From a virus: 58,582 bases of DNA. Positions 1,237-58,274 of this stretch are shown piece by piece (within the stretch, counting starts at the first letter, position 1; every line of letters starts with the position of its first letter). The stretch spans positions 1-58,582 of IMG/VR virus record IMGVR_UViG_3300046167_000222; one strand, written 5' to 3'. A model generated the notes under the pieces. The model saw nothing but the letters and a program-made list of their open reading frames with translations. It ran no database searches and had not been told where the DNA came from. The position numbers and the translations under genes are program-made.

Positions 1237-1683
1237 CTACTGCATTAATGCATAATAGAAAACGCACATTATTACGCCACCGACTAAGAACACAGATACG
1301 CCAATAAGAATGTACTCAACGATTTCTTCTTGCCGTCTCTCTGCTTCAATCTGCTCTTGCTTTTTCTTTTTTCTTAATTCGCCTTGAATCTTTATTATCT
1401 GTTGCCAAGCATTCATGCCGTACTGACCAGTGATAAAATTACGAAGCTCGTTCTCCATCTGCTCTGCCTTTTTCATGGCTGCAAATGTTTCTAATGCTTC
1501 TTCTTCTACCGATCCAATGCGTCTGCCTTTTGCCTTAGAGTGGCCTTCCTTGACAGCGTTGATGCCTTGCATCCACCTACCCAAATCGCCAGCCATTTGC
1601 TCGATGTCACGCCCATGTTGAAAGGCAGAGCAAATAGCTTTGTATGCTGTGCTAGCAAGCGCAATTCCGGTGACTGGATCCAT
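1237..1683 (-). CDS. Membrane-anchored coiled-coil protein, unknown function
   Basis: 148 residues. The N-terminal half is helical with an alanine-rich start. A strongly charged coiled-coil (about residues 95-120, rich in K, E, Q, R) leads into one C-terminal transmembrane segment (about 125-146, ILIGVSVFLVGGVIMCVFYY). It sits between tail genes and the lysis cassette. Such a C-terminally anchored helical protein could be a lysis accessory or virion protein; I cannot choose. The last codons contain a palindrome of the operator family. Copy 2 (35459-35906) is frameshifted. Confidence 0.7.
   Translation of the reverse strand: MDPVTGIALASTAYKAICSAFQHGRDIEQMAGDLGRWMQGINAVKEGHSKAKGRRIGSVEEEALETFAAMKKAEQMENELRNFITGQYGMNAWQQIIKIQGELRKKKKQEQIEAERRQEEIVEYILIGVSVFLVGGVIMCVFYYALMQ
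1240..1253. promoter_or_regulatory. Operator-like palindrome TGCATTAATGCA
   Basis: CTGCATTAATGCAT overlaps the last codons of the 148-residue gene and lies about 12 nt before the 51-residue lysis gene. The same site is kept in copy 2 at 35462-35475. It belongs to the dispersed TGCA-N4-TGCA family also found in the immunity region. Confidence 0.6.
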
Positions 1684-1688
1684 TCATG

Positions 1689-2054
1689 TTACGTCTTTGG
1701 ATTGTCGGCTTTGATTTGAGCAACATGGGTTTGCCATGCTTCAAGACCGTTTTCTGTAATATACTCAAGCTGGCTCTCTAATGTGCCGTAAGCTGCTTGC
1801 CTTGCAATAAGCCAAGCTGGTCTTTCATCGACTGGTTCTTCAGCAATAGGCTCAGGTTTAGCCGAGGCTGTGGAAGTGAAACCAACTGTTGCGAAACTAG
1901 GTGCAACGCCAGTCTTTGGTGCGTACTGTAGTGCCAGATCATCAAGATCAGCCTCCGTCATGCCTGAAGACAGAACTAACTCTGCCCAGCTATTATCTGC
2001 ATAGCGAACCTTTGCAATGCCGTCGTTAATTTCTTCAATGTTGTAAGCGGTCAT
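1689..2054 (-). CDS. Hypothetical protein beside adhesin (possible tail chaperone)
   Basis: 121 residues. The N-terminal ~45 residues read as a small beta domain (IAKVRYADNSWAEL). A Ser/Thr/Pro/Glu-rich linker follows, then a helical C-terminus containing RPAWLIARQAAYGTLESQLE. The C-terminal helix with a WLIARQ-type motif resembles small proteins next to tail fibre genes that act as assembly chaperones. This is inference from position and style. The start overlaps the stop of the adhesin gene by 4 nt. The copy 2 version carries extra acidic residues in the linker. Confidence 0.6.
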   Translation of the reverse strand: MTAYNIEEINDGIAKVRYADNSWAELVLSSGMTEADLDDLALQYAPKTGVAPSFATVGFTSTASAKPEPIAEEPVDERPAWLIARQAAYGTLESQLEYITENGLEAWQTHVAQIKADNPKT

Positions 2055-3190
2055 GCCACTGCTCCTGCTAATGTGCCTGTGTTATTCATTGTGACGCTTG
2101 TGCCTAATACGGCCGATCCGGCTGCTCCACCCGATGAACCAGCAGAACCGTTTGTGCTATTTCCATTTGCGCCACTTGATCCACTTGATCCAGCTACGCC
2201 GTAGGCTGAGCCAGATGAGCCTGATCCACCGGCTCCAGCGTTATTGCTGGCAGATGCGCCACCCGATCCGCTTGCAAGTGTTTGGTTATAGCCCTGACCA
2301 CGCCCACCAGCCCCACCAGACCCACCAGTTGATGTTTGTGTTGAGTTGTATGTGATGTAAACAGGGTAATGGTAATAATACCCACTATCATTGTCACCAC
2401 TTCTATATGTCCAGTTAGATGCACGATACCAGTTATAAGGAGAATTATATGTTCCATAACCCTTTGGGGCGAACATTACTGCGCCACGCGCATAACTGCC
2501 TGTCTGAACGTAGTTGTTCCGAACATCATAAGAGTAACCATTATTCCATCGTACTTTCTTTCGGTTCAAATAATCGATTCGAAAATATGTGGATGTGTTA
2601 CCGCCAGTGAATCCAGATGAAGGATTGTAAGTGAGAGCGGTATAGCTTCCGTTGCCACCTGTGCCGCCGTTGCCGCCGCCGCCGCCACCAGCAAGCAAGC
2701 TACCAGCGTTGTTAATAGTTACGTTTGAAGCTGCGTTATTAATAGCGTGACCACCAGCCCCGCCGTTAGCTGCGCCACCCTTGCCAATGATCGAACCGTT
2801 GTTATTGATAACGAGAGTGCCAGCAAGAGTGCTTGGAATGTCTAGCGCATCGTCAGACACACCACCAATAGTAACGCCGCTGTTAATAACAATTTCTTTT
2901 GGATAATTTACAGCATAATCAGAGCCGAACAATGTGTCAGCATTTTGATCGGTTGATCCTGTAGTGTATGTAAACCGAAAGCCTTTGGCTTGGCTGCGAA
3001 AGTTTGTAAAGTTTATTGTGCCACTATCTGGCACAGTAGCCGCAAGATTTACACCAGTATTATCTGCGGCTTTAGAAAGAATGTTAGAGCCGCCACGGTA
3101 CAAATCAGAATAGCTTACAGCCGCAGAGCCTCCAACAAACTCTGAGCGCAAGTCGCTAAAAGATACTGAGCCTGATGCAGCAATAGCCAT
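2051..3190 (-). CDS. Glycine-rich tail tip adhesin with variable core
   Basis: 379 residues. The conserved N-terminal ~170 residues include FSDLRSEFVGG, a Thr/Ala-rich stretch and VTIGG...GTLVINNNGSIIGKG. Polyglycine blocks follow (GGAGGHA, LAGGGGGGNGG), then a tyrosine- and asparagine-rich core of about 100 residues, then more glycine-rich blocks (TGGSGGAGGRGQG, GSGGASASNNAGAGG) and a conserved C-terminus TSVTMNNTGTLAG. Glycine-rich motifs framing a variable core are the architecture of receptor-binding adhesins such as T4-type gp38, so it probably sets host specificity. The core is unrelated in copy 2, while both ends are nearly the same. Confidence 0.75.
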   Translation of the reverse strand: MAIAASGSVSFSDLRSEFVGGSAAVSYSDLYRGGSNILSKAADNTGVNLAATVPDSGTINFTNFRSQAKGFRFTYTTGSTDQNADTLFGSDYAVNYPKEIVINSGVTIGGVSDDALDIPSTLAGTLVINNNGSIIGKGGAANGGAGGHAINNAASNVTINNAGSLLAGGGGGGNGGTGGNGSYTALTYNPSSGFTGGNTSTYFRIDYLNRKKVRWNNGYSYDVRNNYVQTGSYARGAVMFAPKGYGTYNSPYNWYRASNWTYRSGDNDSGYYYHYPVYITYNSTQTSTGGSGGAGGRGQGYNQTLASGSGGASASNNAGAGGSGSSGSAYGVAGSSGSSGANGNSTNGSAGSSGGAAGSAVLGTSVTMNNTGTLAGAVA

Positions 3191-3405
3191 TACACAGATC
3201 CAAAACCAGTGATGTCATCAACCACAATTAATGCACCAGCAGTTGTTAGCTTAAATTTAGATGTGCCATTGTATTGAAACACCATGTCTGATCCAGACAG
3301 AGTTGCGCTCCATCCGCTTGGAAAGGCTGCTACATTATCTAATGCTCCGGCAACAACGTCACCATTGCTGTCAATAAGGTCAGCCATCAATCGTGCTTTG
3401 GTCAT
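3190..3405 (-). CDS. Small fibre-associated protein
   Basis: 71 residues: MTKARLMADLIDSNGDVVAG, then ALDNVAAFPSGW and a short beta-rich C-terminus. The stop overlaps the adhesin start (TAATG). The N-terminal motif (A-x-x-DLID-x-NGDV) recurs in the copy 2 partner, where the middle has diverged. I do not recognise a family; a linker between fibre and adhesin is possible from its position. Confidence 0.6.
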   Translation of the reverse strand: MTKARLMADLIDSNGDVVAGALDNVAAFPSGWSATLSGSDMVFQYNGTSKFKLTTAGALIVVDDITGFGSV

Positions 3406-3414
3406 TTACCTATC

Positions 3415-5916
3415 CTATCCAAAAACCACAAATTCAAGAACATCACCGGCAGCGGCTCCAGATGCCAGTGTTACGCTTGTTCCATTTGTTGCTGTGAAAT
3501 CAGAGCCGTTAATTAATTTTATGCCGTTCATAAACACTTGAATTAAACCCGCTGTGTACGAAACGGTAAAAGCAGTTTGTGCCGCTGTCGCTGTAGCATT
3601 GCTTTCCGTTAGAGAGAACGGATTAACAGACAGTGTTAATGTTTCGTTGCCACCAGCATTGTTAGTTGTGGCTGTAATGCCAGTGCCAGCAACAAGCTTG
3701 TTTCCAAGAACATCAGCGGTTGTGTCACTGGATGTAACTTTAAGTGTGCCACCACCAGCCGAAGCAGCGGCTTGACTTGCGCTTGCAGCCGCGTTTGTTT
3801 CTGATGTAGATGCGGCAGATGCCGAAGCAGCAGATGAGACAACATCAGCGTTTGTTGACACAACATCAGCATTTGTTGACACAACATCAGCCGCAGTTGA
3901 TGTAGCGTCTGATGATGCAGATGAAGCAGATGCAGCCGCATTTGTTTCAGAAGTGCTTGCCGCAGTAGCAGATGCCGCTGCGTTTGTCTCCGCAGTTTGA
4001 GCATCAGTGACTAACTGGTTAAGAGATGCCTCTTGAGTTGTGCTTACCTTTGTAAACACCTCCACATAAATCACATCACCAGCAGCGGCTCCAGAGTTTA
4101 ACTCTACACTGTTACCGTTAATATAATAATCGTTAGTGCTGCTTGTGCCTTCAACAAGCCGGATGCCATTGAGAAACACAAGTGTGTTTCCATTAGCAAA
4201 AATCGACATTGTGTTGCTGGCATCATCAGTGGTGAATGTTGTTTGCGCTGCCGTTGCAGTAAATATATGAGTGCTAGTCAAGCCTTGAAGGTAAGCACCA
4301 GCAACTTGGAATGACGATCCAACATAAACTTTTAATGCTGAATTTGCTGTGTCATACCAAAGATCACCCTCATCTGGAGATGATGGTGCAGATGCACTAG
4401 CAACAAACAAATCGTTAAATGAATTAACAGCAGTAAGTGATCCAGCAACAGTATCTACATTTGCAATCGAAGCTGCAACTGAAGTTACATTGCTATTAGA
4501 ACCAGCTACCGTGTTAATGTTACCAATGTTTGATGCAACTACAGCAAAATTACTTGTGACTGTAGTTATGCTATTGCCCATGCTGTTACCATGCACTGTG
4601 CAATAATAAAGAAGACCGCTAGACGGAGCCGCTGAATCAACAACAATTGTTACTTTTGCTCCTGCTTGCCCGGCAGTTCCAGTAACAGTAACACCTGTCG
4701 TGTAAGAGGTTGATCCATTCTTAAATGCCAATGGATGCCCAGCATTAGATGAATCTGACTGATCAAATATGTAAGTGTTGCCACGATCAAGCGTCAGTGA
4801 AGGGTTTGCTGATCCATCAAGAACAAACACACCGTTCGCAACGGTAACGGTGTAAGTCGTTACTGAAGATAATGCATTAGCTAGTGTTGTAACATCTGAG
4901 CTGATACCCGCTACTGTCGTTACATCAGAAGAAACACCAGCAACGCTTGTGACATTGCTATCAATTCCAGCTACCGTTGTAACATTAGCAGATATATTTT
5001 CTACAGCAGAAACATCTGCACTAATTCCTGCAACAGTTGTTACATCTGCACTAATTCCTGCAACAGTTGTGATGTCAGCATCGATACCAGCTACAGTATT
5101 TATGTTTGTTTCATTGCTTACAGCATTGTTAATGTTAGAAGCATTGCTAACAGCAGAATTAATATTAGTAGCATTGCTAACAGCAGCGTTGATATTAGAA
5201 GCGTTGCTTACGGCTGCGTTAATATTAGAAGCATTATTTACAGCAGAATTAATATTAGAAATATTTCCTGCAACAGTTGTTACATTAGCTGATATGCCAG
5301 CAACGGTTGTTACATCAGTTTTGATAGCAGCAGTGTCGCTAATAGCGTCAGTTGCTACTGTGCCATCTTCAATGTCAGCTAGCGTGGCAATGTCAGCAGC
5401 AGCCGCAGCAACAGTCGTCACACCAGCAGTAGATGGGCCGTTGACAAGATCGCCAGTAACCGCATCAAACGCAAGAACCTTACCAGCACGACTAGCAACT
5501 GTAGGCAATGTCAAATTTGCAGCCGCATCAGCATCAGTCAAACGAAGTGAGCGACCAACCTCATCATTAAGGTCAGCATTAATTGCTGTAATCCGATCTA
5601 ACTCCTCATTCAGAGAAGTAACATCGAATGGGCCAGACGTTGGAAAGTCTGTAGTACGCTCAAGAGGAATGCTTCTTGTTATAACAACAGTGCTGCCACC
5701 AGACGCACCAACAACCGTCATCGCAATCGAGCCTGTTGCCCCAGAACCACCAGTTACAGTGTAATCAGTCGTGATGGTTTTAAGTGTGCCGTCAACATAT
5801 GCGTTCAGATCGCCTTCTTCAAAGAACTCAAACGGCACAGTAAAGCTAGACTGTGTAACACCAGATGCCACAGTGTAGGATATTCGTGGTGAATTATCGC
5901 TCAAGTTAATTGTCAT
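3415..5916 (-). CDS. T7-type tail fibre with inserted cupredoxin-like domain
   Basis: 833 residues. Residues 1-140 match the T7 gp17 N-terminal attachment domain (PF03906 type), with SYTVASGVTQSSFTVPFEFF and a segment around LERTTDFPTSGPFD. Next comes a long low-complexity rod of short repeats (TTVAGISADVTTVAG, SNINAAVSNA types, about residues 190-350). A domain at about 353-448 has cupredoxin-like ligands: His394 (GHPL), Cys439, His442 and Met446 (YYCTVHGNSM). A Gly/Ser/Ala-rich coiled region (AASASAASTSETNAA repeats, about 640-700) separates two copies of a FTVSYTAGLIQVFMNGIKLI-like module. Copy 2 has the same N-terminus but a shorter rod and no cupredoxin segment. Confidence 0.88.
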   Translation of the reverse strand: MTINLSDNSPRISYTVASGVTQSSFTVPFEFFEEGDLNAYVDGTLKTITTDYTVTGGSGATGSIAMTVVGASGGSTVVITRSIPLERTTDFPTSGPFDVTSLNEELDRITAINADLNDEVGRSLRLTDADAAANLTLPTVASRAGKVLAFDAVTGDLVNGPSTAGVTTVAAAAADIATLADIEDGTVATDAISDTAAIKTDVTTVAGISANVTTVAGNISNINSAVNNASNINAAVSNASNINAAVSNATNINSAVSNASNINNAVSNETNINTVAGIDADITTVAGISADVTTVAGISADVSAVENISANVTTVAGIDSNVTSVAGVSSDVTTVAGISSDVTTLANALSSVTTYTVTVANGVFVLDGSANPSLTLDRGNTYIFDQSDSSNAGHPLAFKNGSTSYTTGVTVTGTAGQAGAKVTIVVDSAAPSSGLLYYCTVHGNSMGNSITTVTSNFAVVASNIGNINTVAGSNSNVTSVAASIANVDTVAGSLTAVNSFNDLFVASASAPSSPDEGDLWYDTANSALKVYVGSSFQVAGAYLQGLTSTHIFTATAAQTTFTTDDASNTMSIFANGNTLVFLNGIRLVEGTSSTNDYYINGNSVELNSGAAAGDVIYVEVFTKVSTTQEASLNQLVTDAQTAETNAAASATAASTSETNAAASASSASSDATSTAADVVSTNADVVSTNADVVSSAASASAASTSETNAAASASQAAASAGGGTLKVTSSDTTADVLGNKLVAGTGITATTNNAGGNETLTLSVNPFSLTESNATATAAQTAFTVSYTAGLIQVFMNGIKLINGSDFTATNGTSVTLASGAAAGDVLEFVVFG

Positions 5917-5931
5917 AGTAATCCTCTATCA

Positions 5932-5943
5932 TGCAGTAATGCA
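5932..5943. promoter_or_regulatory. Operator-like palindrome TGCA-GTAA-TGCA
   Basis: It lies in the 42-nt gap between the large ejection protein gene and the tail fibre gene. The same site is at 41354-41365 in copy 2. An ACGCACAATT element, resembling those at other late gaps, adjoins it at 5951-5960. Confidence 0.55.
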
Positions 5944-5958
5944 GTTTGCCACGCACAA

Positions 5959-14669: not shown

Positions 14670-14677
14670 ATGGGTTA

Positions 14678-14699: not shown

Positions 14700-14705
14700 A
14701 TTCCT

Positions 14706-15518: not shown

Positions 15519-15628
15519 AGTATTAAAGTCCTTACCAAAAAAAAGAAGTTACATTTTCACGCGGTTGTCCGTCTCTTGCATCATCCAGTTATCCCTATCG
15601 GGGCTGTCAGTTTGAAACAGGCCGTATA

Positions 15629-18880: not shown

Positions 18881-18894
18881 CTGCATTAATGCAG
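18881..18894. promoter_or_regulatory. Perfect 14-bp operator-like palindrome
   Basis: CTGCATTAATGCAG in the 67-nt gap between the terminase large subunit stop and the 73-residue gene. On the leftward strand it directly follows the repeated 11-mer TTGTGCGTTGA (18896-18906). Both are kept in copy 2 (54348-54361 and 54363-54373). It could sit in a promoter feeding the portal-to-tail genes. Confidence 0.65.
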
Positions 18895-18895: not shown

Positions 18896-18906
18896 TCAAC
18901 GCACAA
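18896..18906 (-). promoter_or_regulatory. Repeated late-gap element TTGTGCGTTGA
   Basis: One of three exact copies of this 11-mer in leftward late-region gaps (also 22949-22959 and 23769-23779). It is present again in copy 2. TTGATC inside it could act as a -35 element, but no convincing -10 is shared by the three sites. Confidence 0.45.
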
Positions 18907-23128: not shown

Positions 23129-23140
23129 TGCATTAATGCT
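23129..23140. promoter_or_regulatory. Near-operator TGCATTAATGCT
   Basis: One mismatch from TGCA-N4-TGCA, upstream of the small membrane protein gene. Kept in copy 2 at 58220-58231. Confidence 0.4.
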
Positions 23141-23768: not shown

Positions 23769-23779
23769 TCAACGCACAA
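23769..23779 (-). promoter_or_regulatory. Repeated late-gap element TTGTGCGTTGA
   Basis: Third exact copy of the 11-mer, 68 nt before the terminase small subunit start, where it reads TTGTGCGTTGAC and so contains a -35-like TTGAC. It may mark the main late promoter, but the -10 is unclear. Confidence 0.45.
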
Positions 23780-24937: not shown

Positions 24938-24967
24938 TGCATTGCTGCATTAATGCAGTAACATAAT
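24938..24967 (+). promoter_or_regulatory. Early rightward promoter with operator in spacer
   Basis: TTGCAT (24938-24943) and CATAAT (24962-24967) are separated by 18 nt and could be -35 and -10. The perfect palindrome CTGCATTAATGCAG (24945-24958) fills the spacer, so a bound repressor would block RNA polymerase. AAGGAGG (24974-24980) and the first gene follow. The same operator type occurs three times in the immunity region. Confidence 0.65.
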
Positions 24968-26364: not shown

Positions 26365-26561
26365 TGATGAATAAGAATGAATGGACACCATTCGATGCTG
26401 TGTATAATACCACCGAGCAGCGCCAGCCCACATATAGCTGGGCGCAATCGGTGGATATCATTAACAAGGTTGTTCACGCATCGCTTGATGAATGCATGTT
26501 GTCAGATAACGACAGGCAAATGATTATCTCTGCTTGGTCTACAATACTGCGAGGTGTGTAA
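26364..26561 (+). CDS. Hypothetical early protein
   Basis: 65 residues, ATGATG start at the upstream stop (TAATG). N-terminal WTPFDAVYNTTEQRQPTYSW, then a helical C-terminus. No family recognised. Its stop again overlaps the next ATG (TAATG), so expression is tied to both neighbours. Confidence 0.6.
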   Translation: MMNKNEWTPFDAVYNTTEQRQPTYSWAQSVDIINKVVHASLDECMLSDNDRQMIISAWSTILRGV

Positions 26562-26863
26562 TGTTAACTGATCCTTTAGATAATATTATCTCTAATGTGT
26601 CAGATATAACTGGCGTTAGATTGCATGAACTTATGTCAAGCAGAAAAGAACAAGGCATAGTGGATGCTAAACAAATCTATGTATATCTAGCAGTGGAAAC
26701 CACAAGCAAAAGCTATGTCCAAATAGCAAAAGCTATATCAAAAGATCATACAACGGTTATGCATGCATATAAAAAAGCTAAGTATAAAGTTGATGTTGAT
26801 ATGAGGTGGCTCACAAAATTGCGCAGAACTGTAAAGCAAATGGGCTTACAATTAATCGTCTAG
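26561..26863 (+). CDS. Free-standing DnaA domain IV-like protein
   Basis: 100 residues from the ATG at 26561. The central part reads as the DNA-binding domain of DnaA: GIVDAKQIYVYLAVETT, YVQIAKAISKDH and the signature DHTTVMHAYKKA (residues 62-73). No AAA+ domain is present; the first 30 residues are a short helical extension. In DnaA this domain grips the DnaA box. The phage protein may bind its own origin or compete at host boxes, both inferred. It converges on the repressor gene, overlapping its end by 12 nt. Confidence 0.82.
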   Translation: MLTDPLDNIISNVSDITGVRLHELMSSRKEQGIVDAKQIYVYLAVETTSKSYVQIAKAISKDHTTVMHAYKKAKYKVDVDMRWLTKLRRTVKQMGLQLIV

Positions 26864-27409
26864 GTTCTTAACAATCTGAACCACCCTACCAATGATCCGC
26901 ACATCAGCAAGCCTGACTGTGCGGTTCATTCTTGATTGATACACAGAGTTAATGCCTTCAATCTTTTTACCCATTTGTAATCGGTCTTCATAAAAAAACA
27001 GAACTACATTGCTGCTTTCAAATTTCTTTTGCTTTCGTGCGACTACAATATCATTTAGATGTACGCCATAGGTTGGTGAATCTCTATTATATTTATACGC
27101 AACAATTTCGCCGGTTAAATTATACACAGTCACCTGCCCTATATCTTTTTCAAGGTGATCCTTCAGCGTGATCGTTCTTGAAGCCGCATCCAATGTTGCG
27201 TTCTGTGATAGTTGAGGTGCTGATCCCGCCACATGGCTAAGCTTACCTATTGTCTTGGACGATGGCACAAACTTACCACCGTTCAGGAATCTTGTTATGT
27301 TGGTCGGGCTTGTACCCGCCATGGTTGCCCACTTATTAGCTGACCATTCGCGTGTCTGCATAATGGATCTCATCCACACACGGATTGCTTTAGCTTCGTA
27401 GTCTTCCAT
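26852..27409 (-). CDS. CI-type phage repressor
   Basis: 185 residues from the ATG at 27409 (AGGAGG and GAGGAG just upstream). An N-terminal helix-turn-helix (EWSANKWATMAGTSPTNITR, FLNGGKFVPS, about residues 20-60) is joined to a C-terminal domain of S24/LexA-like type (VYNLTGEIVAYKYNRDSPTY, GVHLNDIVVARKQKK, DVRIIGRVVQI). The usual SM-P catalytic motif is not clear (only DSPTYG), so self-cleavage cannot be assumed. It is the only leftward gene in the early region and faces Cro across three palindromes, the standard lysogeny switch. Confidence 0.85.
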   Translation of the reverse strand: MEDYEAKAIRVWMRSIMQTREWSANKWATMAGTSPTNITRFLNGGKFVPSSKTIGKLSHVAGSAPQLSQNATLDAASRTITLKDHLEKDIGQVTVYNLTGEIVAYKYNRDSPTYGVHLNDIVVARKQKKFESSNVVLFFYEDRLQMGKKIEGINSVYQSRMNRTVRLADVRIIGRVVQIVKNLDD

Positions 27410-27426: not shown

Positions 27427-27440
27427 CTGTATTAATACAG
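27427..27440. promoter_or_regulatory. Immunity operator 1, CTGTATTAATACAG
   Basis: Perfect 14-bp palindrome, a variant with TGTA/TACA arms, 18 nt before the repressor ATG. It would overlap the repressor promoter region, so it could be the autoregulation site. Confidence 0.7.
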
Positions 27441-27470: not shown

Positions 27471-27482
27471 TGCAGTATTGCA
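27471..27482. promoter_or_regulatory. Immunity operator 2, TGCA-GTAT-TGCA
   Basis: Within AATGCAGTATTGCATT, whose six-base arms are palindromic. Middle of the three sites between repressor and Cro. Confidence 0.65.
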
Positions 27483-27494: not shown

Positions 27495-27523
27495 TTGCGC
27501 AAGCCTGCATAAATGCAGTAGAT
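27495..27523 (+). promoter_or_regulatory. Rightward lytic promoter with operator 3
   Basis: TTGCGC (27495-27500) and GTAGAT (27518-27523) at 17-nt spacing, with CTGCATAAATGCAG (27505-27518) filling the spacer. A start point near 27530 would put the Cro ATG (27532) at the 5' end of the mRNA, since no Shine-Dalgarno is visible. Confidence 0.6.
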
Positions 27524-27531
27524 TAATTACC

Positions 27532-27732
27532 ATGTTGAGTTATATATCACAGTTAGAAGCAGCGGCAAGCGCAGCAAATGTAACAGTATTACAGGCGTTT
27601 AGGATGTCTGGTGTACCTACCAGCACATACTATCGAACTATCGCTGGGAAAGATTTGCGTTTATCGACTGCCGAAAAGGTACTGAATGCGATCAGAGTTC
27701 ACGCATTACAGCAAACCCAAGGCAATCAGTAA
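27532..27732 (+). CDS. Cro-like repressor
   Basis: 66 residues from the ATG at 27532. A small helix-turn-helix: AAASAANVTVLQAFRMSGVP, TSTYYRTIAGKDLRLSTAEK, VLNAIRV. An upstream in-frame ATG (27442) would run through operators 2 and 3 and is unlikely. No ribosome site precedes the ATG, so the mRNA may be leaderless. Facing the CI-type gene, it should drive the lytic choice. It overlaps the next reading frame. Confidence 0.75.
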   Translation: MLSYISQLEAAASAANVTVLQAFRMSGVPTSTYYRTIAGKDLRLSTAEKVLNAIRVHALQQTQGNQ

Positions 27733-27931
27733 CAATTGGGAGCAATTAGTTACTGGCTTGGTGTCACTGCGCCATGACCGAGGCTGGTCACAAGAAGAAT
27801 TAGCTGATCGTATTGGCTGCGCGTCTTCACTTGTTCACAAGTGGGAGCAATACAAGAGAGTGCCATCTAATTTTCTTTTAATCTGTTGGATGGATGCACT
27901 TGAAGCGCAAGTCGAAATCAAAACCAGATAA
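27686..27931 (+). CDS. XRE-family helix-turn-helix regulator
   Basis: 81 residues if started at 27686; the start is uncertain because it lies inside the Cro gene. The core is a clear XRE domain: LVSLRHDRGWSQEELADRIG, CASSLVHKWEQYKRVPS. A CII-like activator or a third regulator in the switch is possible. The end overlaps the next gene by 38 nt. Confidence 0.7.
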   Translation: MRSEFTHYSKPKAISNNWEQLVTGLVSLRHDRGWSQEELADRIGCASSLVHKWEQYKRVPSNFLLICWMDALEAQVEIKTR

Positions 27932-28474: not shown

Positions 28475-28486
28475 TGCATATATGCA
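28475..28486. promoter_or_regulatory. Operator-like palindrome covering a start codon
   Basis: TGCATATATGCA contains the ATG of the gene at 28482. The 103-nt gap 28379-28481 is AT-rich, with TTGCTT at 28445 and a half-site TGCATTAA at 28433, and probably holds a promoter for the replication genes. Confidence 0.5.
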
Positions 28487-29656: not shown

Positions 29657-30016
29657 ATGGGCTATTCAATTGGGCGTGAAGATATAGACAAGCTTGAGTA
29701 TGCTTTGACTGTAGTTAAACAAAGTATGGAGCCGCTGCCTCACAAGATGATTGTCCAGCAGATCAAGACGATTGCACCATTAGTTACGCTCGGTGCATCG
29801 TTCGATGTTGATATGCTCAACGGCAAGACTGAGGCTCTGGCTAGAGAATTGTCGCAGTATCCTGCCGACATTGTTATCTATGCTGTCGATAAGGTTAAGA
29901 AGAAAGCAAAGTTCTTTCCATCTTTTGCAGAGTTTGCAGAGATCTGTGAACCTATGGCTGCACCTCGTATTCTTTTGCACAATAAACTGCATAAATGCAT
30001 TGATATGCACAGGTAG
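29657..30016 (+). CDS. Helicase-loader-like replication protein (lambda P role)
   Basis: 119 residues from the first ATG after the initiator gene; the start is uncertain, and TTG or GTG codons at 29612 or 29590 would lengthen it. MIVQQIKTIAPLVTLGASFD, LARELSQYPADIVIYAVDKV and FFPSFAEFAEICEP form a pattern seen in phage proteins downstream of O-type initiators. The role as helicase loader is inferred from order. The last codons (LHKCID) contain an operator-like palindrome. Confidence 0.6.
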   Translation: MGYSIGREDIDKLEYALTVVKQSMEPLPHKMIVQQIKTIAPLVTLGASFDVDMLNGKTEALARELSQYPADIVIYAVDKVKKKAKFFPSFAEFAEICEPMAAPRILLHNKLHKCIDMHR

Positions 30017-30039
30017 GTATGCAATAATGCAGTATAAAT
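29987..30039 (+). promoter_or_regulatory. Tandem operators and promoter before recombination genes
   Basis: CTGCATAAATGCAT (29987-30000) and ATGCAATAATGCAG (30019-30032) lie 32 bp apart. TTGATA (30000-30005) and AATAAT (30023-30028) at 17-nt spacing make a good promoter whose -10 is inside the second operator. AAGGAG and the exonuclease gene follow at once. Confidence 0.65.
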
Positions 30040-31692: not shown

Positions 31693-31984
31693 TGACTTGT
31701 GTGAGCGTTACAAAGTCTCAATGCTCACATTCAAAAGGTTTGTCCGGGCGAATGGGTTGCAATATTTAAGGATTGGCAACTCATTCGCAATGAATCAAGA
31801 TCAGTTTGAACTGTTAGAAGAATCGATGACGCGATGTTATCTATCCACAAAAGAGGCGAAGTTTGGCACATCCGTGGCACCGTCAGCTATGCGGGTGAGA
31901 CACGCAACATCAGAAGATCAACAGGACAAAAGATCAGGCGGCAGGCCGAGGAAGTTTGCCGAGCCTATGAGCAGCGTATCTTAA
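31676..31984 (+). CDS. Excisionase-like helix-turn-helix protein
   Basis: From ATG 31676. The first 50 residues (HFDDLCERYKVSMLTFKRFV, RANGLQYLRIGNSFAMNQDQ, FELLEESM) look like a MerR/Xis-type winged helix. The remaining part overlaps the integrase gene by 151 nt in another frame and reads as low quality, so the true protein may be shorter, ending near the integrase start. It would bind arms of the att site and favour excision. Confidence 0.6.
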   Translation: MTYHFDDLCERYKVSMLTFKRFVRANGLQYLRIGNSFAMNQDQFELLEESMTRCYLSTKEAKFGTSVAPSAMRVRHATSEDQQDKRSGGRPRKFAEPMSSVS

Positions 31985-32790
31985 ATGAAATGCGGGGTGG
32001 GGATAACCTCACCCCCTTCTTTGAATTGGCAGAGGATTGGGTATCTCTTGGTCGCGGAGATACCGACAATCGGAACGCCTTGCTCTTGTCTAATTTCTTT
32101 AAGAGCAAAGCAGCATCCGAAATAAACACAGAAGCGTGGAACCTTTTGGTTCGCCGCAAGCTGAAAGGTTGTAGTAATTCACACATCAACCGTATTAGAG
32201 CGACACTTGTAGCGATATTAAACCACGCTTCTGTGACTATAATTATACCACGGCGAAAAGAATTAAACGATAGAGTAAGGTTTTTATCTTACGAAGATCA
32301 GGAAAAATTATTGTCGTGCTACCCTGATTTCATCAGGCATTATTTTATTACGCTATGCTATCAAGGATTCCGCAGACAAGAAGCGTTGAACCTACAGCGG
32401 CAAGGCGTAAACTTTGAGAGCAACACCATTCAACTCAAGGTCAAGGGTGGCAAGCTTCTTACTGTACCTATGCATCCAAGAGTACGCGAAGCGTTGCTGC
32501 CCCACATAAGGCAGAGCAACGCGCAGCTAGTGTTCCTTAACAAAGCAGGCAAGCCTTATTCATTTGGAGATAGCCTCAAAGGATTGCATAATAGAGCCTG
32601 CAAAAATGCAGGCATCAATGACTTTACTATCCATGATTGGAGACACCATTTTGCCAGCCGATTGATGATGGCTGGTGCTGACTTAAACTCTCTAATGAAA
32701 TTAGGTGGTTGGGAATCTGAGAAGATGGTGTTTCGATACGCATCAGTTTCTAATGAACACACCAGAGACACACTGGAGAAACTTAAATGA
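31834..32790 (+). CDS. int: Tyrosine integrase
   Basis: 318 residues. Catalytic residues are visible: Arg180 (GFRRQEAL), Lys204 or Lys207 (KVKGGK), His267 and Arg270 (HDWRHHF), Trp293 (LGGW) in place of the second His, and Tyr302 (FRYAS). The N-terminus (HKRGEVWHIRGTVSYAGETR, IRRSTGQ) is the small arm-binding beta domain, followed by the core-binding helices. It lies next to the tRNA-Thr-like att site, its expected target. Confidence 0.94.
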   Translation: MLSIHKRGEVWHIRGTVSYAGETRNIRRSTGQKIRRQAEEVCRAYEQRILNEMRGGDNLTPFFELAEDWVSLGRGDTDNRNALLLSNFFKSKAASEINTEAWNLLVRRKLKGCSNSHINRIRATLVAILNHASVTIIIPRRKELNDRVRFLSYEDQEKLLSCYPDFIRHYFITLCYQGFRRQEALNLQRQGVNFESNTIQLKVKGGKLLTVPMHPRVREALLPHIRQSNAQLVFLNKAGKPYSFGDSLKGLHNRACKNAGINDFTIHDWRHHFASRLMMAGADLNSLMKLGGWESEKMVFRYASVSNEHTRDTLEKLK

Positions 32791-32828: not shown

Positions 32829-32880
32829 CTTACCCTTGGTAAGGGTGAGGTCGCGTGTTCGAATCACGCTGGCAGCACCA
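32829..32880 (+). other. attP: attP: 3' half of tRNA-Thr(GGT)
   Basis: From the anticodon arm onward the sequence is a perfect tRNA: stem CTTACCC/GGGTGAG, loop TTGGTAA with anticodon GGT, variable AGGTC, T arm GCGTG-TTCGAAT-CACGC, acceptor TGGCAGC, discriminator A and CCA. The 5' half is missing: upstream is integrase-end sequence. This is the usual attP of phages that rebuild a tRNA gene on integration. The rest of the 224-nt gap to 33014 holds one operator-like site (32934-32945). Confidence 0.85.
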
Positions 32881-32933: not shown

Positions 32934-32945
32934 TGCATTTATGCA
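32934..32945. promoter_or_regulatory. Operator-like palindrome TGCA-TTTA-TGCA
   Basis: Between the att site and the gene at 33015. A half-site TGCATTAATG at 33008-33017 overlaps that gene's start codon. Confidence 0.5.
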
Positions 32946-35458: not shown

Positions 35459-35906
35459 CTACTGCATTAATGCATAATACAAAACGCACATTATCACGCC
35501 ACCAACTAAGAACACAGATACGCCAATAAGAATGTACTCAACGATTTCTTCTTGCCGTCTCTCTGCTTCAATCTGCTCTTGCTTTTTCTTTTTTCTTATT
35601 TCGCCTTGGATCTTTATTATCTGTTGCCAAGCATTCATGCCGTACTGACCAGTGATAAAATTACGAAGCTCGTTCTCCATCTGCTCTGCCTTTCTTCATA
35701 GCTGCAAATGTTTCTAATGCTTCTTCTTCTACCGATCCAATGCGTCTGCCTTTTGCCTTAGAGTGGCCTTCCTTGACAGCGTTGATGCCTTGCATCCACC
35801 TACCCAAATCGCCAGCCATTTGCTCGATGTCTCTCCCATGCTGAAAGGCAGAGCAAATAGCTTTGTATGCTGTGCTAGCAAGCGCAATTCCGGTGACTGG
35901 ATCCAT
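35459..35906 (-). pseudogene. Membrane-anchored coiled-coil protein, frameshifted (copy 2)
   Basis: Homologue of 1237-1683. One extra base near 35692 (CCTTTCTTCAT versus CCTTTTTCAT) splits it after about residue 70. The C-terminal coiled coil and membrane segment are otherwise unchanged. Confidence 0.75.
35462..35475. promoter_or_regulatory. Operator-like palindrome (copy 2)
   Basis: CTGCATTAATGCAT, identical to 1240-1253 and at the same place between genes. Confidence 0.6.
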
Positions 35907-41353: not shown

Positions 41354-41365
41354 TGCAGTAATGCA
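41354..41365. promoter_or_regulatory. Operator-like palindrome (copy 2)
   Basis: TGCA-GTAA-TGCA, matching 5932-5943, in the gap before the fibre gene. Confidence 0.55.
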
Positions 41366-41380
41366 GTTTGCCACGCACAA

Positions 41381-50136: not shown

Positions 50137-50144
50137 ATGGGTTA

Positions 50145-50166
50145 GGGGGAGAGTTGTCTCTCCCCC
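50145..50166 (-). terminator. Hairpin after capsid gene (copy 2)
   Basis: On the mRNA strand GGGGGAGAG-ACAA-CTCTCCCCC, a perfect 9-bp stem at the same place as 14678-14699. Relative to copy 1 two stem pairs are swapped on both sides. Confidence 0.8.
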
Positions 50167-50172
50167 ATTCCT

Positions 50173-50985: not shown

Positions 50986-51094
50986 AATATTAAAGTCCTT
51001 ACCAAAAAAAGAAGTTACATTTTCACGCGGTTGTCCGTCTCTTGCCTCATCCAGTTATCCCTAGCGGGGCTGTCAGTTTGAAACAGGCCGTATA

Positions 51095-51640: not shown

Positions 51641-52307
51641 AGTTTGGATCTCTCTGTGATGGATTCCAATAGCGAGGGTCTTGCATCATTGTCTTTAGCT
51701 GATCTTCATTGGTAGCTTGCGGAGCCACAAACTGACCTTGAGGAGATGCTTGTTGTGACTGAGACATAAAATGCTCTAGCATTTTAATACCCTGCGCACT
51801 CTGACCAAGCAGTTCTACCTGATCTGCAAACTCCTCTGGCACGTTTTTGCCAGCCCAAAGATCGACAGCTTCAATACGAGCGTCAGCATTCTCACCTAAC
51901 GCCTGACGTTCTGCGTCAAGGTCTGGCCCTTGGCCTTCCATGTAAGCAGCATACTTAGCTATACCATCTGCAAATTCTTCTTGCGAATAGCCATTCTCAA
52001 AAGAATGTTCAGCCCACCAAGCAAGCATTTCATTATCAACAGCTTCAGCTTCGTTGATCTGTTCTGGCAATTCGTAATCACCAGCAGTCTCAGGCCTGCC
52101 TTCAAGAGCAGAGATTTCTAACTCTTGCTCTATCTGCGCTCTGATTTCATCTTGCCCTTGACCAAGCTTTGATTCCAAAGAGGAGTATGAAGCTGCCATA
52201 TCCTCTGGTGTATTGAACTTCTCTGGTAGCCACTCAGGGCGTTCAGAGACAGGTGCTTCCTCAACCGCTACTGCTTCGGCTAACTCTGCATTATCTGCAT
52301 CATTCAT
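51597..52307 (-). CDS. Scaffolding protein (copy 2)
   Basis: 236 residues; WAGKNVPEEFADQVELLGQS replaces WASKNLPEEFADQVEMLGQS. The ends are unchanged. Confidence 0.82.
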   Translation of the reverse strand: MNDADNAELAEAVAVEEAPVSERPEWLPEKFNTPEDMAASYSSLESKLGQGQDEIRAQIEQELEISALEGRPETAGDYELPEQINEAEAVDNEMLAWWAEHSFENGYSQEEFADGIAKYAAYMEGQGPDLDAERQALGENADARIEAVDLWAGKNVPEEFADQVELLGQSAQGIKMLEHFMSQSQQASPQGQFVAPQATNEDQLKTMMQDPRYWNPSQRDPNYVKQVQEGFSKLYR

Positions 52308-52567
52308 TGTTGCTCTACCTTTTGTCCGTGGTTAATACGCCTCTCAATGAGGCCGACAAGATACCGCTGCCCTTCAAGATGGCGCAGTTCGGCATCACTT
52401 GCATTCGGCCCTTGAACAGATTCAATGGTGATCGAACGCAAATACTTTAGAACGGCTTTGCCGTTCGGTGTTTTGAAAACTGAATTTAGATTCCGAGAGA
52501 TGGTGTCATCATCTTCTTTGGTGCGGGGAAAGTTATCCACCCCCAAGTGAAGGGATTGCTTGCGCAT
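52304..52567 (-). CDS. Bbp19-like small protein (copy 2)
   Basis: 87 residues, same protein as 16838-17101. Confidence 0.65.
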   Translation of the reverse strand: MRKQSLHLGVDNFPRTKEDDDTISRNLNSVFKTPNGKAVLKYLRSITIESVQGPNASDAELRHLEGQRYLVGLIERRINHGQKVEQQ

Positions 52568-54087
52568 CTTGACCTTGCTGTTGCTGTTGCTGTTGATACT
52601 CTTGCGCAGCCTTCAGAAGTTCTTCACGTTCTACTTTGTCCCTAACCAGATTGTCTGGTACGCCAAACTTTTTAGCGAGATACAGCGCAACATCCTCAGA
52701 GTTAATGAGAACATTTAATACTTCGGGGCCGAACGTGCCGCCAACCATTGATAGATAACGTGAGACTGCGCTGATGTCTTGGTTGGATTGTGCTTGTGCC
52801 AATGGTGACACTGACCGCACTTTGACTTCCCGCCCATTAATGGATGGTAACTCAATGCGGCCTTGCTTTCTTAGAATGTAAACGACACGTTGCAATACTG
52901 GCTGAACCATCTCAGCCTGCAATCTGCCGAAAGCTGATCCAATACGTCTGGACAGATCAGCCATGCGTTCTGCGATCTCGGTTGCAGACGCGGGTGTTTT
53001 GTTAGGGATCGCCTAACATATCATTGTAGAGCGCACGTTTAATGTTGGTGCGCATGTCATTTAGCACCAGATTAGCTACATCAAAGTTGCCTGCGTTCTG
53101 GATAGGCTGCAAGCCAGCAGAACCCATAGCCTTTGGAATGATTGTTCCGGGAACGAGGTTGATTGTATCTGTGTTGATGATGCCATCATCATCCATCTGA
53201 TACACACCAGAGATAGCCATCTGTGCATTCTCCAACACTAACTCAATCGTTAGGTTGGTAGTCTTGATTGCGCTAAGAGCATTGATGAGAGGGCCACGCC
53301 CATAGACTTCACCAGATGCTTTAGACCAACGAAAGCAAACAAAAGGATTGGAGCCAAGCCCTTTGTAGTTCTCCTGATAAATGATTTCTTTGTCAGCTAC
53401 ATTAACAACATAGTAATCAAATTGATCTTCATTAGGCACATCATAGTTTCGGCAGATGACCTCTAAGATTTTCTTTTGAGTATCAGGCTGGCTTAAAACA
53501 CCAGCAGCAGTCTTCTCACCTAAGATTGCCTTTGGATACGCAATAGGTATCTCTGAGTTTTTAAGAGTGCGCTCTCTATAAACGTGGTCAATTTTATCAT
53601 CAGGGCCAGTATCCAAATGGACGGAAGGCAAAGGGATTGCGTTAAACCGTACTGGATTAATTGCATCGCCTTCTTCAACCAAGAGAACACCAGTTCCCAC
53701 TGCCAAGTCCATGAAAGATTCATGTATCTCTTGACCAAAGTTAGAGTTCTGGATGACTTCAAAGACGTACTCAGTGACTTCATCAAGAGTGTTATTGACT
53801 TCATCTTGTTGATCCTTTGGGATTTCAGAGCCAGCAATAAAGTCAGCCCAACGTGCAAAGTTAGGTACTAGACCTGACTGCAACCTAGATGCAAATTCTT
53901 GCACACCAACAACCGCTGTCTCATCAAAGATCTTATCATCGCGCCGCTGCCCCGGAGTTTCCGAAAAGAAACTCTGGCGCATAGGCAGCGCATACTCATA
54001 ACAATCTTCAAATAGAGGCTCAAAGTTTACACGCGCTTGTTTAGCGCGTTCGTACTTTTGCAGCATACGGTCTGCAATTTGATCCAT
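52533..54087 (-). pseudogene. Portal protein, frameshifted (copy 2)
   Basis: An extra G near 53008 (TTAGGGATCG versus TTAGGATCG) splits the 517-residue protein after about residue 361. Both parts otherwise match copy 1 almost exactly, so an error in a G run is likely. Confidence 0.8.
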
Positions 54088-54308
54088 TAAACAGTCTCGT
54101 CATAGTAACCCAGAGCCGCTTTGTTGCTTGTAAGCAACGAACGTCTGCCAGCACCACCACCAACTTTTTTGCGAGCAACCTCTTTCTCAAGAGTTTTAGC
54201 TTTTGCATCTTCTTTTTTCTGCTGCTCTTCCGCTGCTTTGTTGTCAGCTTCAATCTTGTCGTTTGGATCTACCGCTGGTTTTTTTGGGCCACCACCACCT
54301 AAGCACAT
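54087..54308 (-). CDS. Small protein before portal (copy 2)
   Basis: 73 residues. MCLGGGGPKKPAVDPNDKIE and the GRRSLLTSNKAALGYYD end are kept; a few Lys/Glu swaps in the middle. Confidence 0.7.
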   Translation of the reverse strand: MCLGGGGPKKPAVDPNDKIEADNKAAEEQQKKEDAKAKTLEKEVARKKVGGGAGRRSLLTSNKAALGYYDETV

Positions 54309-54347
54309 AATAAATTCCTCTCATAGCTATAGGACTTGTTTAACTCA

Positions 54348-54373
54348 CTGCATTAATGCAGATCAACGCACAA
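54348..54373. promoter_or_regulatory. Operator palindrome plus 11-mer (copy 2)
   Basis: CTGCATTAATGCAG (54348-54361) and, on the minus strand, TTGTGCGTTGA (54363-54373), arranged exactly as at 18881-18906. Confidence 0.6.
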
Positions 54374-54375
54374 AA

Positions 54376-55898
54376 CTACATACGCGACCAAAGACCTTCT
54401 CTGCGTACCTTTGGCTTGCGCGTAAACACATCAAACTCTCTGGTTGCTTGGAAAGGTTTATTTGCTGTGCTGTTGTTGCGAAGTATCTGCCTGCCCTCAC
54501 CAGAGCCAAGCATTAGATACTGCAATGCATCATGGATGTGAGAGAAGTGGTTCTTGTCTGGCTTATCAGCATAACGCTCACCAGATACTTGCATGCGCTT
54601 GTACTGATACCCACCCTCAAAACCTTTAATGATTGTGCGGCAGCGTTGATCGATCAACAAACCAGACTGCCCTTCAATCATTCTGTTTAGTGGTGCAGAC
54701 ACAGATTCCAGACGTAGTGCCACATCATTAGATGGCGCAGGGCGAGCAGACAAGCCAGCCCCTCGCATTATCTGGAACGGTGTTGTCTCATCAGTCTGTG
54801 CGCGGAAGTCACCAGCCGGATCACCAAAGATAATAATCTCACATCCGCCGTAGCGTGTAGCTATCTCCTGCCTCAACACTTCAGCAAAACGTACAATGCC
54901 CATGTCAAACGCAACAATCTCTTGCAGCAGCATCCATCTGCCACGAACCTTCTGCCCAAAGACAGCAGCAGGCGTTAGTCCAAAGTCAATACCAATGTAG
55001 ACAGGCATGCCGTTAGCCACTGGTATTTCTTCTTTAGCTACATGAATGTCAGGCGCAAACATAGGATAGACAGGCTTACCGTCCTTTATGCTTCCGAGCC
55101 TGTTCATAACGTAGACATCGATCCAGCTTTTGGTCTTGCCCTGTACGATGTTCGGATAATAATCCTTGCGCATATTCTCTCTGTTCTCTGCGCTCTCGTT
55201 TGGAACGTATTCGGATATGTCGCCTTCTTCTGTTTTGCGCTCTAACATCCCTGCGGGTTGTGTGAAGAACAGCCAGTTGTCTGGCTTTACCAGCATCTTT
55301 GCTTCTTCTTTTGAGATGTGATCTGGAACCGGAACCTCGCCCTGACATTATAGGCCACCAATGATCTTCCTCCGGCGCGTTGGTATCACAGATCACACCT
55401 GTCCATGTTGCGCCGCCATCCTTCATAGAAGGGTAACGACCAACACGCATAGTGCATGCATCAATGATTGACTTAGGTATCTCCCTCGCCTCGTTCACCC
55501 AGATGCCAGTGAGTTCAAGGGAGAGCAACTTTTTCACATCTTCTGGACGATCGAGTGCGAGGAAGATTACTTCAAGGTCTATGTCATTCTTTTTAATGTG
55601 ATGCGTGAATGGAACAGACCAAGTAAACTTGCCCCACTGTTCCTCTGGAAACCAGTCAAGCCAAGTCTTAATCGTTGTGGTTTTAAGCTGTGGGTTGGTG
55701 TTACGAATAACAGCCCAGCGGCTACGGCGAGTGCCATCAGGTGAATGCTCTTGCTGTAGTGCGCGGCGAAAGATTCTCTACGCAACAACCAACGGACTTG
55801 CCCGAACCAACAGGGCCGCGCAAGCCACGAAAGAATACATCAGACTTCATAAAGGATTTTAGTACATCACCATCAGGCTTGTACTTAAAGTTGGTCAA
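54376..55898 (-). pseudogene. Terminase large subunit, frameshifted (copy 2)
   Basis: Same TTG start (55898) as copy 1. The frame breaks near 55775 (GATTCTCTACG versus GATTTCTACG, within the Walker A region) and near 55342 (CGCCCTGACATTATAGG versus CGCCCGACATGATAGG). The nuclease half (54376-55296) reads through cleanly. Confidence 0.8.
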
Positions 55899-56079
55899 CC
55901 TTGTGATCCTTACCGAACTTAATCATTTGAGCAACAACCTCTGGCCCGATAACAGAGATAACCTTATCGGCCTCGTAGTCATTACAGAAATCTTTGGGGT
56001 GGTGAGCAAGGTGTACCTTCTTCACTATAGTCCGGAGCAACTCACGCTCCTCAAGTTTAAGCGTGTGCATAAAGCTCAT
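55885..56079 (-). CDS. Small hypothetical protein before terminase (copy 2)
   Basis: 64 residues with a few substitutions against 20416-20610 (LEERELL, HLAHHPKDF). Keeps the 14-nt overlap with the terminase start. Confidence 0.6.
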   Translation of the reverse strand: MSFMHTLKLEERELLRTIVKKVHLAHHPKDFCNDYEADKVISVIGPEVVAQMIKFGKDHKVDQL

Positions 56080-56207
56080 TTCTTTTTGAAGCCCTTCTTC
56101 ATATTAGAATAAGCTTTGTCAGAGATGGTACTCTTTGCTTTAGTTCTAGAAGTGCCAGCTTTCTTGCGAGCATTGATGTTAGCGTATAAACCTTTTTTCA
56201 CAGTCAT
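56076..56207 (-). CDS. Small basic protein, KKGLYANI type (copy 2 only)
   Basis: 43 residues: MTVKKGLYANINARKKAGTS, then RTKAKSTISDKAYSNMKKGF, KKK. The MTVKKGLYANI start is familiar from short phage proteins near terminase genes. It takes the place of the three genes at 20607-21111 in copy 1 and overlaps both neighbours by 4 nt. Confidence 0.65.
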   Translation of the reverse strand: MTVKKGLYANINARKKAGTSRTKAKSTISDKAYSNMKKGFKKK

Positions 56208-56488
56208 GCTTTTGCCTTATTACGTTTGCTGATTGCTTTGCCTTTTTTAATGGCATCTGCTTTAGAAGAAGCACCCCAGACTTGTAACGATTTAAGCAGG
56301 CGTGTTGGCCTGCCCTTCTCGTCACGCTCGGGTCCTTTGGCTGCACCCATACGCTGCAAGAAGCTAGCGCGGCGTGGGTTATCACCAGACTTAACTGGTG
56401 CTTTCATGCCTGTACCTTCACGGCCTTTAGCGTTCAAGCCGCCTTTAGGATTCTTGCCAGCGGCGCGTGTCCATGCAGGGGTAGCCAT
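56204..56488 (-). CDS. Small basic protein, GLNAKGR type (copy 2)
   Basis: 94 residues; matches 21104-21403 except for a shorter lysine-rich C-terminus ending SKRNKAKA. Confidence 0.65.
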   Translation of the reverse strand: MATPAWTRAAGKNPKGGLNAKGREGTGMKAPVKSGDNPRRASFLQRMGAAKGPERDEKGRPTRLLKSLQVWGASSKADAIKKGKAISKRNKAKA

Positions 56489-56724
56489 TACTTCTTCTTC
56501 TTAGCTGTCCACGCCTCATTCTTTAGAGGAGTGGATTTATCATCTGCCTTTAGTTTGCCATCAGGCTTTCTAGCGCGAACGATCTCGTCACCAGCCTCAA
56601 GAGGAAAGCAACGCACACTGTCACCAGTTAGCGTTTCACCTGTTTTGATTCTGCCATCAGGCATAGTGACAACAGCACCTTCATAGATACTGCCATCAGC
56701 GAGTTTGTATTTAAGCATCAGCAC
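56488..56724 (-). CDS. Small beta-rich hypothetical protein (copy 2)
   Basis: 78 residues; two substitutions against 21403-21639 ([11 protein letters not shown]). Confidence 0.6.
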
Positions 56725-57226
56725 GACCTTTGCGTTTCTTTGTTACAGCCTTACGCTTCAAACGCTGCGTTGCGCTCTCGCGTTTAGCATTGCCAGATGT
56801 GATCTCTTTAGAAGACTGACCCTGATAAGGGTTCTTTGTTTTTCCAACAGATGAGCCAGACATTACCTCTTTAGGAAGATTGATCTTCTGCCCCACACGA
56901 ATCTGGTTGGCGTTCTTGATCCCTGGATTTGCAGCCATTAGCTGACGAACAGATGTGCTGTACTTCTTTGCAATCTGTGAAAGAGTGTCACCACTCTTAA
57001 CAGTAATCGAACCAGAGGTTTTCTTAGGAGCAGCCTTTGCAGGAGCAGACTTCTTTGCTGCCTTACGCGCTTTAGCTTTCTCAATAGCTGTCTTGCTCAA
57101 AGATGAGCCAGTAGCGGTAGCCTTGGTAGCGGCAGGCTTTGGCTTTGCTGCACTAGCCTTGGCACGCTCACGAACAGCGTCAAGCCGTTTGTTCTCCGAT
57201 TTAGTCATTGAAAGAAGGGATGCCAT
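56711..57226 (-). CDS. LysM-domain protein (copy 2)
   Basis: 171 residues. LysM core [40 protein letters not shown]. The Lys/Ala-rich spacer before it is different ([13 protein letters not shown]) and the residue after it carries [11 protein letters not shown]. Confidence 0.85.
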
Positions 57227-58008
57227 TACATTTGTCCTTGTATCTCGTTTAGCGTGGGAAGATCGTTTGTGGATTGGGATGCATAAGAATCATATGACTG
57301 CATCATTGATGGCACGTTCGTACCGGCTTCTGCTGAAGAAGAAAGCAAGTCGGTAAACTTTCCCCATATAGCTTTGCGTTTGTTTGTCATCGGGCCACGA
57401 AAGACAAACTCATCTACGCCCTCATCAGGCTCGTCATCAAAGTCTACATCGATAACGCTAGGTTCTTGCGGGATGTTAATGCGAACACGCATAGCTTCTT
57501 CTTTAGAAGAACCGTCAGGGTTCTCAGGCATGAGAATGCCACCAAGAGTTCTGGCGGCAGGATACATCCCTGTGCCTATATCCTCTAAAAATTTATCAAA
57601 CCCACCAACAGGTTCAAAGTCGTAGGTGTCGAACACTTGAACCTTGCCGTCCTGCTTGGTAACGCCGAAGTTGCCAAGAGATGTACGGATCTGCTCACCA
57701 ATGGTTTCGATGGCGTACTTGTCATCTTTGGTAAAGATGTTCTCTCCACCAAGGATGTCGCGCACCTGTTTGTAATCAAATCCTACAATGTCACCCTCTT
57801 GTAGATCAGGGTGTGTAGTGTCCACGATGAGGCGCAGTGCTTCTAAGAACTCTCCACTAACATGATCCTCTGTCATGGTGCTTGCTTCTGCGTCAGGGAA
57901 CAAAGCCATGTTCGCAGAGTTCAGTACACCACGAAGATAGAAGTTCATGTGCTGCGGTAGGTTCGTCAGCAATTGATCAAATTGTACAGCGTTCGGAATA
58001 AGAGACAT
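57226..58008 (-). CDS. Conserved hypothetical protein, 260 residues (copy 2)
   Basis: Same as 22135-22917 at both ends; the stretch at about residues 65-130 differs by many substitutions ([32 protein letters not shown]). This is the most divergent part of the packaging segment between copies. Confidence 0.7.
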
Positions 58009-58039
58009 GCTGCAATATGGCAGCTACATATCTAAATGC

Positions 58040-58204
58040 TCAACGCACAATTCTTTCGCGCATCCACAGGAAAAAAAATAAAACGATTAATGCAGGCTGA
58101 AAGAACACGAATAGGATCAAGTTCCATGCTTCATAAGATATACCGCTGATGCTTTCCAGCCAGTAAATGGCATCGCAACATAGTAAGAACAACCAATCAA
58201 TCAT
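58040..58204 (-). CDS. Small membrane protein (copy 2)
   Basis: 54 residues from ATG 58204, same ribosome site as copy 1. LLCCDAIYWLES replaces MWCVNAIYWLES. Stop again lies in the 11-mer TTGTGCGTTGA. Confidence 0.6.
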   Translation of the reverse strand: MIDWLFLLCCDAIYWLESISGISYEAWNLILFVFFQPALIVLFFFLWMRERIVR

Positions 58205-58274
58205 GCGCTTCTCCTTTGCTGCATTAATGCTACCGAACCTTTGTGGCAATAATGTGAGAAGGGGGCGGGTTCGA

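Follow-up and report, generated by a model that had tools for sequence, protein, structure and literature searches.

Dispersed across the phage genome in the IMG/VR virus record IMGVR_UViG_3300046167_000222 (the window, 58,582 nt) is a short palindrome, TGCA-N4-TGCA, which very probably constitutes a promoter-based operator set for the phage's own helix-turn-helix (HTH) regulators, Cro and a CI of lambda/LexA type, the operators at late promoters being linked to CI. This reading is carried by enrichment of the motif, conservation of its arms, its placement in the cro promoter region, and the finding that early sites depend on the presence of Cro and late sites on that of CI. The record comprises two similar phage units arranged head to tail, about 91–94% identical over most of their shared length, with no host DNA, and represents either tandem prophages or a chimeric assembly. 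All statistics for the stretch were calculated on the non-redundant unit 1 only (positions 1–34221, 34.2 kb).

Enrichment and conservation of the palindrome

TGCA-N4-TGCA was found at 12 exact sites in unit 1, compared with Markov-simulated means of 2.8, 2.4, 1.6 and 1.6 at orders 1, 2, 3 and 4, respectively (maximum of 7 in 200 simulations each). Restriction to centres of A/T only left 9 sites, with 0.07–0.23 expected from Markov simulations, and TGCA pairs at other spacings from 0 to 56 occurred 0–6 times each. Every palindrome listed in an earlier note, made from the letters of this DNA alone, was located; one additional exact site, at 24938, was absent from that list and overlaps the site at 24946, with one TGCA in common. 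The chance expectation of 0.5 per 35 kb given there was too low because the TGCA tetramer is itself over-represented (237 in unit 1), and the claimed enrichment withstands the corrected expectation of 1.6–2.8. The late-module sites recur in the second unit, as had been noted, which taken alone is weak evidence because the units are only about 6–9% diverged where well aligned.

When tested for symmetry, the sites proved to be near-perfect palindromes with the consensus taCTGCA-TTAA-TGCAGta (in oligo form, TGCATTAATGCA); the wider consensus, derived from exact sites of CI-bearing contigs with both strands read, is taCTGCAttaaTGCAGta. For a reading as an RNA element, no Rfam match was obtained. 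The segment 24938–24957 holds three TGCA half-sites with an 8-bp period. L002, L003, L012, L013 and L048 have this doublet at the equivalent place, and overlapping doublets also occur among relatives and, for other lineages, within certain cro promoters (L247 and L260, for example).

For conservation analysis, relatives of less than 97% identity were mapped onto unit 1, and the arms were compared with 20 flanking bases. Arms were 88–100% identical across relatives, with flanks down to 66–85%, and the sites at 1241, 28475, 29988 and 32934 were exact in every aligned homologue. The claim that like sites lie outside the immunity region, including among late genes, was borne out by retention of 18882, 5932 and 1241 in relatives, the first of these down to 76% TerL identity.

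Two near matches named in the earlier note, at 23129 and 27427 (the latter re-placed at 27428), look like genuine weak or variant sites, so that the third site of the CI/Cro switch is not an exact one. At 23129, arms were 98% and flanks 73% conserved in 5 homologues, one of which reads exact TGCA-N4-TGCA; at 27428 the values were 90% and 77%. Relatives read TGYA-N4-TACA or TGTA-N4-TGCA at the latter position, and many CI-bearing contigs carry a hybrid TGTA/TGCA or a TGCA/TGCA site there. The match inside the integrase gene (32599), also reported earlier, is present in the sequence and was rejected as an operator: of 13 homologues a single one has the exact site and most have TGCAAAAAAGCA, and the residues encoded here are A-C-K-N-A-G, which makes a coding coincidence probable.

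The CI/cro switch and the distribution of early and late sites

The CI and cro genes form a divergent pair on the − and + strands, respectively, with two exact palindromes and one variant between them. Neither protein had a match in Pfam or PHROG or among annotated phages, and relatives of CI, down to 30% identity, were found only in IMG/VR. AlphaFold models were built with alignments from related loci. For CI (predicted local distance difference test, pLDDT, 79) the model comprised an HTH and a beta domain, and the best Foldseek matches were a lambda-186 hybrid repressor, LexA and 186 CI (E 1e-6 to 1e-4). For Cro (pLDDT 88) it was an all-helical, four-helix HTH, with 434 Cro among the top matches (probability 0.98, template modelling score 0.62, but E 0.29). 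The predicted folds of both proteins are repressor-like. No obvious catalytic serine motif was seen by eye in the C-terminal domain of CI. Operator and recognition helix are both nearly invariant in the CI alignment.

If one changed outer arm base is allowed, the palindrome immediately precedes cro in every one of about 70 non-redundant loci, whether or not they carry CI, except L222. Most of these loci have TTG about 10 bp before the palindrome and a TA-rich, −10-like stretch after it, and the cro ATG follows the palindrome by 13–14 bp in 58 of the 70. The palindrome can thus be read as an operator within the spacer of the cro promoter, and the cro message would apparently be leaderless or near-leaderless. 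The promoter assignment derives from this conserved spacing and not from a generic sigma-70 scan, which gave no excess over shuffles in the early region. Adjoining CI, a small stand-alone protein consisting only of a DnaA C-terminal DNA-binding domain is encoded at 26534–26863 (+; PF08299, E 4e-18), and an HTH_31/HTH_3 protein, a candidate second early regulator or late activator, directly follows cro at 27686–27931 (+).

Among 134 distinct loci, 27 of the 40 that have both CI and Cro were also found to carry integrase, and 0 of the 92 that lack CI. On long contigs (mostly at least 18 kb; 15 with CI and Cro, 11 with Cro only, 5 with neither) the palindrome occurred at 3.32, 1.06 and 0.06 copies per 10 kb, respectively, the first two classes differing at a contig-level Mann–Whitney P of 2.6e-5; controls with the wrong spacings N3, N5 and N6 and with other palindromes gave no density difference between contig classes. 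CI-bearing contigs carry a palindrome near integrase. Most of the palindromes left in Cro-only contigs are found ahead of cro, near +750 and between roughly +1350 and +2100, and some of these contigs have one around 2 kb upstream; these positions correspond to 27506, 28475, 30020 and 24946. Since Cro-only contigs keep these sites, the early tier seems to require Cro alone; and because early palindromes persist in relatives lacking CI and integrase, we infer that the palindrome is common to CI and Cro. Pelagibacter phage Hodr (L158) has related structural genes (portal 63%, TerL 65% identity), and CI, Cro, integrase, box (described below) and palindrome were not found in it.

The late sites adjoin a box, TGTGCGT, which they follow on the late strand by 5, 7 or 9 bp; these mostly odd gaps probably simply mirror three orthologous promoters. 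The box, written TGTGCGTT/G or, as a late-strand element, TTnTGTGCGTTG (or GG, TT), lies ahead of late genes. Unit 1 has 7 copies of TGTGCGT, all on the − (late) strand and none on the +; six start at 23778, 22958, 18905, 15668, 5957 and 1268, and the seventh, 21532, is inside an open reading frame (ORF). Across contigs, a stricter form was counted 100 times on the late strand and 12 times on the other. We read the box as a late promoter element; it is probably a late promoter or an activator site. Many relatives retain it without the palindrome, which accompanies 24 of 79 boxes in CI-bearing contigs and 2 of 45 in contigs without CI (Cro only; contig-level Fisher P = 4e-4). In a CI-less lineage (G033, G034, L068), the same late promoter 3′ of terL bears another palindrome, GTTGCTTT-N7-AAAGCAAC, with a variable centre. 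As an alternative dispersed set this element was not supported, being present in a single copy per contig.

Near the two sites upstream of the exonuclease gene, a promoter-like TTGATA-17-AATAAT spans 30000–30028. Coordinates of all features are given in Table 1.

Table 1 Putative operators and associated features in the window; operator roles and folds are predicted, and homologue counts refer to exact copies of the site
Position	Strand	Feature	Evidence or context
1241..1252		Late operator upstream of gene 735–1076	9 bp after box; exact in 10/10 homologues
5932..5943		Late operator ahead of tail-fibre gene 3415–5916	7 bp after box; exact in 16/19 homologues
18882..18893		Late operator, 3′ of terminase large gene, ahead of portal operon	5 bp after TGTGCGT; exact in 12/18 homologues
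18898..18905	−	Late-promoter-like box TGTGCGTT
23129..23140		Probable weak operator TGCATTAATGCT ahead of small late ORF	Arm conservation
24938..24957		Two overlapping operators ahead of anti-restriction (ArdC) operon	Exact matches
26852..27409	−	CI-like prophage repressor, 185 aa	Predicted N-terminal HTH and all-beta LexA/lambda-CI-like C-terminal domain
27428..27439		Variant operator TGTATTAATACA adjoining CI ribosome-binding site	Probable CI autoregulation
27471..27482		Second CI/cro intergenic operator	Exact in 11/17 homologues; arms 92%, flanks 68%
27506..27517		Operator in cro promoter spacer	TTGCGC 27495–27500, −10-like TAGATT 27519–27524; exact in 17/18 homologues
27532..27732	+	Cro-like lytic repressor, 66 aa	Predicted fold
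28475..28486		Operator overlapping early-gene start codon (ATG 28482)	Exact in 6/6 homologues
29988..29999		Operator upstream of RecE-like exonuclease gene	Exact in 16/16 homologues; arms 100%, flanks 66%
30020..30031		Second operator upstream of exonuclease gene, 32 bp from 29988 site	Overlaps −10-like hexamer; exact in 15/18 homologues
31834..32790	+	Tyrosine integrase	PF00589, E 2e-23
32833..32880	+	attP core = 3′ part of tRNA-Thr(GGT) gene	48-bp exact match
32934..32945		Operator 54 bp past attP core, ahead of genes 33015 and 33302 (DUF6378)	Exact in 4/4 homologues
35463..35474		Second-unit copy of 1241 site
41354..41365		Second-unit copy of 5932 site
54349..54360		Second-unit copy of 18882 site

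Probable host and rival explanations

The attP core matched the 3′ part of tRNA-Thr(GGT) on 21 genome contigs, largely SAR116/Puniceispirillum metagenome-assembled genomes (MAGs), and from this match the phage probably infects SAR116, abundant ocean bacteria. The presence of integrase, CI and attP points to a temperate phage, and the term prophage used in the earlier note derives its support from these features; an integrated copy was not encountered in the genomes searched. A CI search of genome contigs with close-relative patterns returned none. Nor did the CI profile hit anything in 20 genomes that carry the tRNA match, or the CI profile and TerL in 61 genomes from the family to which the SAR116 genome G051 belongs; prophages are often missing from MAGs.

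Several points weigh against the proposed operator set and its link to CI. The contig-level P-values ignore relatedness and the contigs are fragments, so that the evidence from them is overstated. On a TerL tree, CI state changes only 4–5 times; random independent pairs gave on average 2.6 agreements and 0 disagreements, a number too small to reach significance. On the supporting side, five pairs chosen by eye from that tree all agree in site density. CI is present without an exact box-linked late site in the contigs G036, G038 and G042, and the CI-less G028 and G029 have one each; because of these exceptions, the rule linking late sites to CI is not absolute. The late −10 elements, moreover, are not clear.

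Persistence of the early sites without CI, for which Cro would suffice, could be extended to the claim that Cro alone is the physiological ligand, with CI acting only at the CI/cro intergenic sites and the late sites serving Cro in timing the late genes. This is unlikely given the scarcity of box-linked late sites in Cro-only contigs relative to those with CI, and given that the variant site in the CI leader occurs with CI. About equally improbable is the idea that the late sites are stoperators, at which bound repressor would halt elongating RNA polymerase, as proposed for mycobacteriophage L5. Their location between late genes of the same orientation, at gene ends or in short gaps, would suit it; each late site is nevertheless symmetric and set just after a conserved late-strand promoter-like box, whereas L5 sites are asymmetric and orientation dependent (PMC9283540). 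The stoperator analogy drawn in the earlier note is unsupported for these reasons, and a block of initiation is the simpler reading because the late sites adjoin the promoter-like box.

A motif belonging to a host regulator or nucleoid protein and borrowed by the phage is very unlikely. Palindromic sites of such length are typical of many bacterial regulators, yet TGCA-N4-TGCA was absent from 132 kb of SAR116-type contigs (1.9 expected), which bears out an enrichment over host background as far as this probable host DNA is concerned, and it is near-absent from related phages without Cro and CI. The abundance of TGCA in unit 1 and the coincidental match at 32599 could hint at chance or a composition artefact, but the order 1–4 simulations, the controls for spacing, and the conservation and placement of the sites leave this explanation with a negligible probability and exclude it for the whole set.

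Proposed mechanism and relation to known systems

In the proposed operator set, Cro, joined by CI in temperate members, would bind within the spacer of the cro promoter as well as ahead of the other early operons (the anti-restriction operon, the gene at 28482 and the exonuclease), and early transcription would be restrained. Members with CI and integrase carry further copies just after the TGTGCGT of the presumed late promoters and beside attP. In a lysogen, CI would then block initiation at the late operons directly and not only by shutting off an early activator, and through the variant site beside its own start CI would limit its own synthesis. The earlier proposal of a single repressor silencing the prophage through scattered sites stands in so far as a scattered, symmetric, phage-encoded set linked to CI and Cro is present; it does not stand as to a single repressor, as CI is not needed for the early sites and the set appears to be shared with Cro and arranged in two tiers. 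Its further claim, of symmetric sites in a podovirus, was supported for a podovirus-like temperate phage.

The phiC31 repressor-binding sites are conserved inverted repeats. The best reading is that the present system works like the dispersed immunity of phiC31 or L5, in which 18–30 repressor-binding sites are dispersed (PMC4557955). With phiC31 it would share many repressor-binding sites across the genome; the phiC31 repressor gene, however, lies downstream of the structural genes and yields three isoforms (PMC4557955), whereas here a divergent CI/Cro pair apparently shares a site and the predicted CI fold is lambda/LexA-like. As in L5 (Cluster A), many sites lie in promoters and short intergenic spaces and would answer to one repressor, but L5 sites are 13 bp long and bound by a monomer (PMC9283540), and those described here are symmetric and adjoin a promoter-like box. 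Divergent cI and cro genes, shared intergenic operators and CI and Cro folds (both predicted here) recall lambda, 434, N15 and PY54, from which the present phage differs in having putative operators also at late promoters and beside attP. In SPbeta, the master repressor MrpR binds a short element, SPBRE, repeated at promoters over the prophage (PMC10516654). The repetition of one short element at promoters is similar here, but MrpR has a tyrosine-recombinase fold, in place of the predicted lambda/LexA-like fold with a Cro partner. The combination of a palindrome that Cro and CI apparently share and of CI-linked copies at late promoters makes the present set a variant of the known dispersed repressor sites.

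The control of lysogeny in uncultured marine phages is poorly known, and no earlier account of this group's switch was found in the literature searched. As a simple marker in the sequence, the site could serve to predict the regulon, the immunity group and perhaps the lifestyle of metagenomic contigs, and attP gives the probable host clade, SAR116. CI-linked late operators make the evolution of dispersed repression directly testable. On balance, the comparisons slightly favour a two-tier immunity in these marine podovirus-like phages, in which one palindrome is read by Cro and CI, and CI, integrase and late operators are gained or lost together, CI-less relatives keeping the Cro tier only. If true, this would provide a natural record of dispersed prophage silencing being added to a lytic control circuit or removed from it.

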